In this document: one piece after another, positions 61,183 to 64,000 of the stretch
Numbering within the stretch: position 1 is the stretch's first letter
Layout: the number at the start of each line of letters is the position of its first letter
NCBI GenBank assembly: GCA_947465495.1
Contig: CANIAS010000006.1
Coordinates: 1 to 64,000 of the forward strand
DNA: 64,000 nt
Source of the DNA: Candidatus Pollutiaquabacter sp.
Lineage (GTDB): Bacteria > Bacteroidota > Bacteroidia > AKYH767-A > 2013-40CM-41-45
Direction of reading: 5' to 3'
The notes under the pieces: generated by a model
The model's input: the letters and a program-made list of their open reading frames with translations, nothing else
Told to the model about the DNA's origin: nothing
Database searches by the model: none
Program-made: the position numbers and the translations under genes

Positions 61183-62730
61183 ATGGAATTTGATTTGAAT
61201 CGCGAAAAACCCTCCATCATTAAAGTTATTGGTGTAGGCGGCGGCGGCAGCAACGCTGTGAACCACATGTACCATCAAGGAATCAAAGGTGTTGAGTTCG
61301 TCGTGTGTAATACCGACGATCAGGCATTGAGGATTTCTCCTGTTCCGACAAAGATCCAGTTGGGTGAAAGTCTCACGAACGGCCGCGGCGCAGGCTCCAT
61401 TCCGGAAGTTGGCAAGAATGCCGCTATTGAGACCATCGATGAATTGAAAAAGATTCTGTTAGATAACACGCACATGGTGTTCATCACTGCAGGCATGGGC
61501 GGTGGCACAGGCACAGGTGCAGCACCAGTTATCGCACAGGCAGCGCGCGAACTCGGTATTTTGACAGTGGGTATCGTCACAATGCCATTCGATTTTGAAG
61601 GCAAGAAACGTAAACAGCAAGCCGATGAAGGTATCGAAGCGCTGAAAAAAAATGTGGATTCAATTCTCATCATTCGCAACGAACGCCTTCGTGAGATGTT
61701 TGGAAACCTTAAGCTTTCACAAGCATTCTCTCACGCTGATGACGTTTTGACGATCGCCGCCAAAGGCATCGCTGAAATCATTACAGTTACCGGACATATT
61801 AACGTGGATTTTGAAGACGTTAAAACCGCTGTTCAGAATAGTGGACACGCTATCATGGGTTCCGCTACAGCTGAAGGTGATAATCGTTCCATTCGTGCTG
61901 TTGAACAAGCGCTCGCTTCGCCGTTGTTGCACGATAACAATATTAAAGGGGCACGGTATATCCTGATGAATATTTCTAGCGGCGACAAGGAGGTGACCAT
62001 GGATGAAATCGGAGAAATTACCGACTATATCCAGGATCAAGCAGGTTTGACAGCTGATATTATTTGGGGTAATTGCTTTGATGAAACACTGGGTGACCGC
62101 TTGAGTGTTACGATTATCGCTACCGGATTCAAAACCCGCGCCGAACAAGGGCATGAAGCGGTTCAGAAAGAACGTGCCGGTACTAAAGTGTATGTCATGG
62201 ACGAAGAACCAAAGAAGCCGGTTGTAGTAACTCCTGAACCAGTCGTTGAAAATACCTTGCCCGCCACCTCGGAAGAGTTGTTTGAACCCGTACTAATTAC
62301 TCCGATTCAACCAGTTTCCGAGGTTAAACCTGAATTATCAACTCAGGAGGATAATCAATTTACCTTTGAATTCAACATTGCTCCAACGGGTAAGCCAGCC
62401 GAGCAAAAAGAAGAGGATGCTGCCCTGGAATTCGAAATGCGTAAAGATGTTGAAGTTCATGATCTAAACACCGATGAAGCGGACGAGGACGACTTTTTCC
62501 GTAAATCACGCGAACGCCTGGCTCGACTTAAGTCGTTGAATTATCGCCTGGGTGGAAATAATCTTTCTGAATTAGAGCGTGAGCCTGCCTATAAACGTAA
62601 AAACGTAAAATTGGAATCAGTCGCTCATTCAAGTGAGTCAAACATTTCCCGTTATACATTATCTGCGGAAGACGAAAAAAAGGCACACATTCGTTCCAAT
62701 AATTCCTTCTTGCACGATAACGTAGACTAA
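61183..62730 (+). CDS. ftsZ: Cell division protein FtsZ
   Basis: KVIGVGGGGSNAVNHMY; FITAGMGGGTGTGAAPVIA; long linker and basic C-terminal region. Confidence 0.98.
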   Translation: MEFDLNREKPSIIKVIGVGGGGSNAVNHMYHQGIKGVEFVVCNTDDQALRISPVPTKIQLGESLTNGRGAGSIPEVGKNAAIETIDELKKILLDNTHMVFITAGMGGGTGTGAAPVIAQAARELGILTVGIVTMPFDFEGKKRKQQADEGIEALKKNVDSILIIRNERLREMFGNLKLSQAFSHADDVLTIAAKGIAEIITVTGHINVDFEDVKTAVQNSGHAIMGSATAEGDNRSIRAVEQALASPLLHDNNIKGARYILMNISSGDKEVTMDEIGEITDYIQDQAGLTADIIWGNCFDETLGDRLSVTIIATGFKTRAEQGHEAVQKERAGTKVYVMDEEPKKPVVVTPEPVVENTLPATSEELFEPVLITPIQPVSEVKPELSTQEDNQFTFEFNIAPTGKPAEQKEEDAALEFEMRKDVEVHDLNTDEADEDDFFRKSRERLARLKSLNYRLGGNNLSELEREPAYKRKNVKLESVAHSSESNISRYTLSAEDEKKAHIRSNNSFLHDNVD

Positions 62731-62796
62731 TTTTTGCGCCGGCGAACCGACTCATCCCGCTTCCCCAAGTACTGACATCGTTCGTATCGGCATTTC

Positions 62797-62822
62797 AGCC
62801 CTCCTTCATGGAGGGCTTTTTC
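62797..62822 (+). terminator. Intrinsic terminator after ftsZ
   Basis: AGCCCTCC-ttcat-GGAGGGCT then TTTTT. Confidence 0.88.
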
Positions 62823-62832
62823 ATTTTGTTTG

Positions 62833-62840
62833 TATTTTTG
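62833..62840 (+). promoter_or_regulatory. Candidate -7 element for the GatB/YqeY gene
   Basis: TATTTTTG matches TAnnTTTG, 20 nt before ATG 62860. Confidence 0.4.
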
Positions 62841-62859
62841 AATCATTAATAAAACCATC

Positions 62860-63306
62860 ATGAGCTTAGAAGAAACAATTAATGCAGACTTGAAAGCCGC
62901 AATGTTGGCTAAACAAGAAGCCAGTGTGCGCGGCCTACGAGCGATCAAGCAAGCGGTCTTACTTGCCAAAACATCGGGCGGCGGATCTATTTCCCCAGAA
63001 GATGAATTCAAAATGCTTCAGAAGTTGGTAAAACAACGAAGAGAATCTGCCGAAGTGTTCCAACAACAAGGTCGTGCCGACTTGGCAGGGCCGGAGTTGG
63101 AAGAGATAGCAGTCATTGAAAAGTATCTCCCTCAGATGATGAGTGAAGAGGAAGTCCGTGTGGTAGTTAAGGCAGCCATAGCTCAAACCGGCGCATCGTC
63201 AGCCCAAGATATGGGCAAGGTTATGGGTTTGGTAACCAAGCAGTTGGCTGGAAAAGCGGATAATAAACTGGTTTCGCAACTTGTAAAACAATTGTTAGGA
63301 GCGTAA
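62860..63306 (+). CDS. GatB/YqeY domain-containing protein
   Basis: LKAAMLAKQEASVRGLRAIKQAVLLAKT; EIAVIEKYLPQMMSEEEV; KVMGLVTKQLAGKADNKLVSQLVKQLL. Confidence 0.95.
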   Translation: MSLEETINADLKAAMLAKQEASVRGLRAIKQAVLLAKTSGGGSISPEDEFKMLQKLVKQRRESAEVFQQQGRADLAGPELEEIAVIEKYLPQMMSEEEVRVVVKAAIAQTGASSAQDMGKVMGLVTKQLAGKADNKLVSQLVKQLLGA

Positions 63307-63326
63307 TTCAGCTTTTTTTCATGAAA

Positions 63327-63357
63327 CTTGTTTTTTTATTGCCGAATACTACCTTTG
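63327..63357 (+). promoter_or_regulatory. Bacteroidota-type promoter of cold-shock gene
   Basis: CTTG (63327-63330), 19 nt, TACCTTTG (63350-63357). Confidence 0.75.
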
Positions 63358-63361
63358 AAGT

Positions 63362-63409
63362 GTCACCTGCAGTTATTCATTTAACAACGGGATGCTCCAA
63401 GCAGGTGAC
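63362..63409 (+). repeat. Perfect 9-bp inverted repeat in cold-shock gene leader
   Basis: GTCACCTGC (63362-63370) and GCAGGTGAC (63401-63409), 30-nt loop. Confidence 0.8.
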
Positions 63410-63439
63410 GAGTGTTCCGTAAATTTAATTTATTACCAC

Positions 63440-63634
63440 ATGAAAACCGGAACTGTAAAGTTCTTCAATGAGTCCAAAGGCTATGGCTTCATTGTATCGG
63501 ACGAAACAAAAAAAGAGGTATTCGTACACCACAGCGGCCTCTTGGAAAAAGTTCGTGAAAACGACAGGGTTGAGTTCGAAGAAATGGAAGGTCGTAAAGG
63601 CGTTAATGCAGTTAACGTTAAGCGAGTCCAGTAA
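63440..63634 (+). CDS. Cold-shock domain protein
   Basis: MKTGTVKFFNESKGYGFIVSDETKKEVFVHHSGL. Confidence 0.97.
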   Translation: MKTGTVKFFNESKGYGFIVSDETKKEVFVHHSGLLEKVRENDRVEFEEMEGRKGVNAVNVKRVQ

Positions 63635-63659
63635 TTCGATTCCACCACACTGGAATTTT

Positions 63660-63689
63660 CGGGAACCGTTCACGGTTCCCGTTTTTTTT
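63660..63689 (+). terminator. Intrinsic terminator after cold-shock gene
   Basis: CGGGAACCG-ttca-CGGTTCCCG then T8. Confidence 0.95.
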
Positions 63690-63774
63690 GCCATAGCTCC
63701 TGACAATTTTATGTACTTTGTAACATTGGAAAATGGTGCCTCTGCTAACGCCTGCACCGCTCCAGTTGTCCTGT

Positions 63775-64000
63775 ATGAATAGCATGGATTTCGCAAAAGT
63801 GGTTGCTGCCGTAGATATCGGCGGAACAAATACAGTTTTCGCATTGGTTGATCGCGCCGGTCGAATTCTGCATAAGGATACAGTACCAACACGTTCTGCC
63901 ATTACTTGCGAAGCACTCGTGCAGGCAGTGTCTGATCGTCTTCGTTTGACTTCGAAAGATTATCAGTTGATGGCTGTCGGAATTGGTGCACCAAACGGCA
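63775..64000 (+). CDS. ROK-family protein (glucokinase-like), truncated by window end
   Basis: Missing from the ORF track because no stop is in the window; ATG 63775 gives MNSMDFAKVVAAVDIGGTNTVFALVDRAGRILHKDTVPTRS...GIGAPNG. Confidence 0.9.
   Translation, partial: MNSMDFAKVVAAVDIGGTNTVFALVDRAGRILHKDTVPTRSAITCEALVQAVSDRLRLTSKDYQLMAVGIGAPNG

Follow-up and report, generated by a model that had tools for sequence, protein, structure and literature searches.

A predicted kissing-type pseudoknot in the leader of a cold-shock gene from one clade of Bacteroidota

The window analysed here is a stretch of 64,000 nucleotides (nt) from Candidatus Pollutiaquabacter sp. (Bacteroidota), positions 1 to 64,000 of the forward strand of contig CANIAS010000006.1 (assembly GCA_947465495.1). 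Its subject is the leader of a gene for a cold-shock domain protein (csp), in which two stems, S1 and S2, are predicted to interlock as a pseudoknot at the start of the message. The genome of the window has two csp genes (n = 2); the one with the pseudoknot leader sits 3′ of a YqeY/GatB-like gene, and this pairing of neighbours identifies the orthologous locus. The features of the locus, in order along the plus strand, are as follows.

62860..63306, + strand: YqeY/GatB-like gene (Pfam PF09424, E 8.8e-45)
63328..63330, + strand: TTG, the −33 element of the Bacteroidota primary promoter, read from the sequence
63350..63357, + strand: −7 element TACCTTTG, read from the sequence and separated from the −33 element by N19
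63362, + strand: predicted transcription start
63362..63370, + strand: S1 5′ arm GUCACCUGC, partner 63401-63409, with compensatory changes in orthologues
63371..63386, + strand: loop L1, 16 nt (16-21 in orthologues), from hand-placed structures
63387..63397, + strand: S2 5′ arm ACGGGAUGCUC, partner 63410-63420, found unprompted by RNAalifold, with compensatory changes
63398..63400, + strand: loop L2, CAA (0-5 nt in orthologues), from hand-placed structures
63401..63409, + strand: S1 3′ arm GCAGGUGAC, inside the apical loop of the S2 hairpin, pairing with 63362-63370
63410..63420, + strand: S2 3′ arm GAGUGUUCCGU, pairing with 63387-63397 (RNAalifold, compensatory changes)
63421..63439, + strand: A/U-rich translation initiation segment outside the pseudoknot, 19 nt (15-19 in orthologues), from hand-placed structures
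63440..63634, + strand: csp gene, cold-shock domain protein of 64 amino acids (Pfam PF00313, E 9.4e-18)
63660..63689, + strand: intrinsic terminator, a 9-base-pair (bp) stem at 63660-63681 followed by T8

Architecture of the csp leader

The Bacteroidota promoter consensus is TTTG at −33 and TAnnTTTG at −7 (PMC7366714). The original prediction had read CTTG at 63327-63330, N19 and TACCTTTG at 63350-63357 as a promoter with a transcription start near 63363. These elements are present as claimed, and the start is close to the one adopted here: as the TAnnTTTG box spans −12 to −5 relative to the transcription start in Flavobacterium psychrophilum (PMC9723704), +1 is predicted one base further 5′, at 63362, where it coincides with the first base of S1. 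The ATG at 63440 and the terminator downstream of the gene were also located where that prediction had put them.

S1 joins GTCACCTGC (63362-63370) to its perfect complement GCAGGTGAC (63401-63409) in 9 bp across a 30-nt loop, exactly as first proposed. S2, which was absent from the original prediction, consists of 11 bp between 63387-63397 and 63410-63420 and is interlocked with S1, its 5′ arm falling within the S1 loop and its 3′ arm directly following the S1 3′ arm. The small competing hairpin UGCU-CCA-AGCA that had been proposed instead can be drawn in the window; it is not conserved, and its 5′ bases belong to the conserved S2. The third loop, L3, is only 0-1 nt long in the orthologues, so that a coaxial H-type fold over an S1 of 6-9 bp is not feasible. 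A kissing-type fold would be feasible and would fit the short L2 and L3; the 5′ strand would then pair with bases in the apical loop of S2.

A further pairing, between the S2 3′ arm and codons 3-5 (GUUCCG/CGGAAC), was considered and rejected: inspection shows that G002 has lost it, and the other orthologues give no clear sign of it. In G005 and G004 the csp start codon could lie within a small UUACC/GGUAA hairpin (window 63427-63456); it is weak and partly a matter of codon usage.

Conservation of the two stems and chance controls

Orthologues were sought in 11 genomes of the family with the YqeY-csp gene pair as locus marker. The pair is kept in 9 of the 11, and eight of these nine carry the long structured leader (G000, G001, G002, G004, G005, G006, G009 and G010); the ninth, G007, has the pair, but its leader is short and different. 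All eight carriers have, close to the predicted start, a 5′ arm that can pair with a segment lying 30-39 nt downstream. The S1 arms differ in their bases and are still complementary (GUCACCUGC/GCAGGUGAC, GCCCGC/GCGGGC, UAUCCCGC/GCGGGAUA, UACCCGC/GCGGGUA and others). S2 has 11-15 pairs in 8/8 carriers, often with a bulge at the same position, the distance from its 3′ end to the AUG is 15-19 nt in every case, and the loops are nearly constant.

The −7 box TACCTTTG is unchanged in seven of the eight carriers, while G006 carries TAATCTTTG and its promoter assignment is uncertain. In the window's genus (three genomes) S1 opens on the predicted +1 itself; in four further carriers its first base falls at about +5 to +10. 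The leaders of some csp paralogues in the family (L002, which is the second csp of the same genome, at 1440-1500, L006 and L024) have boxes such as CACCTTGC, GACCTTGC and TATCTTGC, nearer the alternative TAnnTTGY (SM5 of F. psychrophilum, PMC9723704) than TAnnTTTG, and a 7-bp inverted repeat lies across or beside this box in two of them, L002 and L006.

Under the two-stem structure, 88% of cells are paired in an alignment of seven sequences, and nine pairs (18 cells) are changed on both sides. Three of these pairs lie in S1 and six in S2, which gives each of the interlocked helices its own covariation support. G001 was left out of this alignment, as it was not aligned by MAFFT, and the topology is kept there too. 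A five-sequence alignment gave a similar result, with 95% of cells paired. The pair positions were chosen from the same sequences, which inflates these percentages, and three fairer measures are available. None of 500 shuffles of the seven-sequence alignment reached the observed values, sliding by 1-3 columns lowered the paired cells to 37-47%, and RNAalifold, given no structure, recovered S2 with seven of nine pairs doubly compensated. The compensatory changes in orthologous leaders that the original prediction had named as a check are thus present.

The 9-bp stem of the window alone is only suggestive, since dinucleotide shuffling of the leader produced a perfect inverted repeat of at least 9 bp 24 times in 3000, and 8 of 780 window tiles of equal length contain one, a chance occurrence of about 1%; the real support is therefore comparative and lies in the compensatory changes. 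The score for interlocked stems gave z values of −4.3 to −6.8 across the eight carrier leaders, each reached by 0-1 of 1000 dinucleotide shuffles. No comparable score was found in a control set of 95 further csp leaders from Bacteroidota (mean z −0.16), which included 16 of the same family, or among the best 19 csp leaders from the rest of the order, whose scores were far lower. By raw score alone the leader does not stand out uniquely, as three other plus-strand segments of the 64-kb window score higher; the case for a structure rests on its conservation. Taken together, the comparisons leave us highly confident that the S1 and S2 structure of the leader RNA is real.

Phylogenetic spread and likely origin

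The eight carriers cluster as one group (support 86/90) in a tree built from FtsZ, with G007, G008 and G003 outside it, and one change accounts for the distribution of carriers in 94% of bootstrap trees. This grouping makes a single gain likely. Leaders of most other csp genes in Bacteroidota are short (roughly 25-35 nt), which fits the median lengths of 5′ untranslated regions in F. psychrophilum (24 nt) and B. thetaiotaomicron (32 nt; PMC9723704). On the simplest account, the pseudoknot would have been gained once, between an ordinary promoter and a short A/U-rich leader.

The covariance model R1 found no convincing copy outside the csp locus in the genomes searched (order, 42; class, 395; phylum, 396); of 11 weak matches inspected, none lay before a csp gene and several lay within coding sequence. 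The sensitivity of R1 is limited, as it misses the true carrier G001, and for this reason the 95 and 19 other csp leaders were also scored directly. Searched at the gathering threshold, the whole window gave no Rfam match, and 62000-64000 gave none even with E values up to 10 allowed; the covariance model of the cspA thermoregulator (RF01766) was not matched either. No structured csp leader from Bacteroidota came up in searches of the open-access literature (main texts).

Two other structures were seen in passing. The csp genes of Tenacibaculum and Polaribacter (L074, L096, L101 and L119; 60 nt before the start) share a leader of about 50 nt that contains ACGTTGTTAG...AACAAC, with a possible small hairpin unrelated to the pseudoknot. 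In the window, a terminator-like hairpin AGCCCTCCTTCATGGAGGGCT followed by T5 lies at 62797-62822, between ftsZ and the YqeY-like gene.

Candidate roles of the pseudoknot

In Bacteroidota an A/U-rich initiation segment replaces the Shine-Dalgarno site. As read from its sequence, the leader probably controls the lifetime or the translation of the csp message. Direct masking of the initiation site is not indicated, because the structure leaves the initiation segment free; what remains is that the leader may protect the 5′ end, alternate between S1 and S2, or be remodelled by Csp. In the reading that we prefer, the csp mRNA of this clade would start with a cis-acting kissing-type pseudoknot, in which the S2 hairpin presents the S1 3′ arm in its apical loop for pairing with nucleotides at or next to the very start of the transcript, while the A/U-rich segment of 15-19 nt would remain outside and open. 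The simplest role would be to hide the 5′ end from 5′-end-dependent decay and to keep the initiation segment accessible, and temperature or Csp protein may in addition shift the fold, as in other csp mRNAs. We hold this statement as a whole, 5′-end protection included, tentatively and a little short of probable.

Several points weigh against it. In the four carriers where S1 starts some bases downstream of +1 a short free 5′ end would be left, the start sites themselves being predicted, and for G006 even the promoter is uncertain. With so short an L3, S1 and S2 could alternate, and not both form fully together. The comparative support also comes from eight sequences only.

The related proposal of an independently evolved csp sensor, a 5′-terminal kissing pseudoknot that would respond to temperature or to Csp level, gained once and with no Shine-Dalgarno site to hide, is possible, with somewhat less confidence. 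A simple melting thermometer was rejected, and is unlikely, because in every orthologue the nearest-neighbour energies of the single stems predict S1 and S2 each to be stable from 5 °C up to 50 °C or higher. A temperature sensor in the manner of E. coli cspA could work instead by exchange of S1 and S2, or by a full pseudoknot formed only in the cold, the cold fold favouring translation or stability. The analogy is drawn from the identity of the gene, as csp mRNAs of E. coli, Listeria and S. aureus carry thermosensing leaders (PMC8155936, PMC9947658), and the nearly equal energies of S1 and S2 alone in the window (−15.1 and −13.7 kcal/mol at 37 °C) would suit a switch. However, S2 is clearly stronger than S1 in most orthologues, so that this near-equality is not conserved, the calculated stability of both stems over the whole range speaks against such a sensor as well, and cold induction is not general to csp genes. 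We regard it as unlikely, if the best placed of the alternatives.

Slightly less likely again is autoregulation, in which Csp would bind the single-stranded L1 or the initiation segment, or remodel S1 and S2, and so tune its own synthesis. For other bacteria, remodelling of csp leaders that depends on Csp is reported (Zhang et al., cited in PMC8155936; PMC9947658), and L1 offers a single-stranded segment of 16-21 nt in all carriers, but other csp genes in the same genomes are without the structure, and the control would then apply to a single paralogue. A ligand-binding riboswitch, or a site for a ribosomal or other protein that incidentally controls csp, appears improbable: compact pseudoknots with short L2 and L3 are frequent among riboswitches, but this one is present before one gene only and in one clade only, has few invariant unpaired bases such as a ligand pocket would need, and leaves the initiation site unmasked. 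A DNA operator palindrome for a transcription factor, or a chance repeat, in place of an RNA structure would account for an S1 immediately 3′ of the −7 box and for a 9-bp repeat of a kind expected in about 1% of such sequences, but is very hard to credit when complementarity and not sequence is kept across eight genomes, when there are two interlocked stems, and when 23 of the 167 pairs in the eight hand-placed structures (86 G-C, 58 A-U, 23 G-U) are G-U and pair only in plus-strand RNA, a count that is supportive only, as G-U was allowed in choosing the pairs.

Among known systems, the E. coli cspA thermosensor (Giuliodori et al. 2010) resembles the pseudoknot leader in being a structured csp 5′ leader with long-range pairing and possible alternative folds, whereas the present element, some 60 nt long and entirely upstream, does not involve the initiation segment and has no sequence match; by the absence of an Rfam match, the leader of the window is not the enterobacterial one. 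The thermoswitches of two Bacillota, Listeria (cspA) and S. aureus (cspB/cspC), also occupy leaders of csp genes, about 100 nt long (PMC8155936); by their description, they belong to another phylum with Shine-Dalgarno-based initiation and would be of independent origin. Conserved structured 5′ regions without an Rfam match are described in F. psychrophilum, also of the Bacteroidota, although csp is not among the genes named in the main text of that report (PMC9723704). The 5′-terminal stem-loop stabilisers, E. coli ompA for example, also place a stem at or near +1 before an open initiation region, as S1 would by the predicted start sites; here, in contrast, the terminal strand would be paired in a pseudoknot and not in a simple hairpin, and the stabilising role is a proposal.

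Structured csp leaders are already known in Enterobacteria and Bacillota, and a separate compact pseudoknot in a phylum without Shine-Dalgarno initiation would show repeated evolution of csp leader control. Its limited spread in one clade, together with a close relative (G007) that has the gene pair and no pseudoknot, makes a direct comparison possible, and the leader would test how such leaders act where there is no Shine-Dalgarno site to mask.
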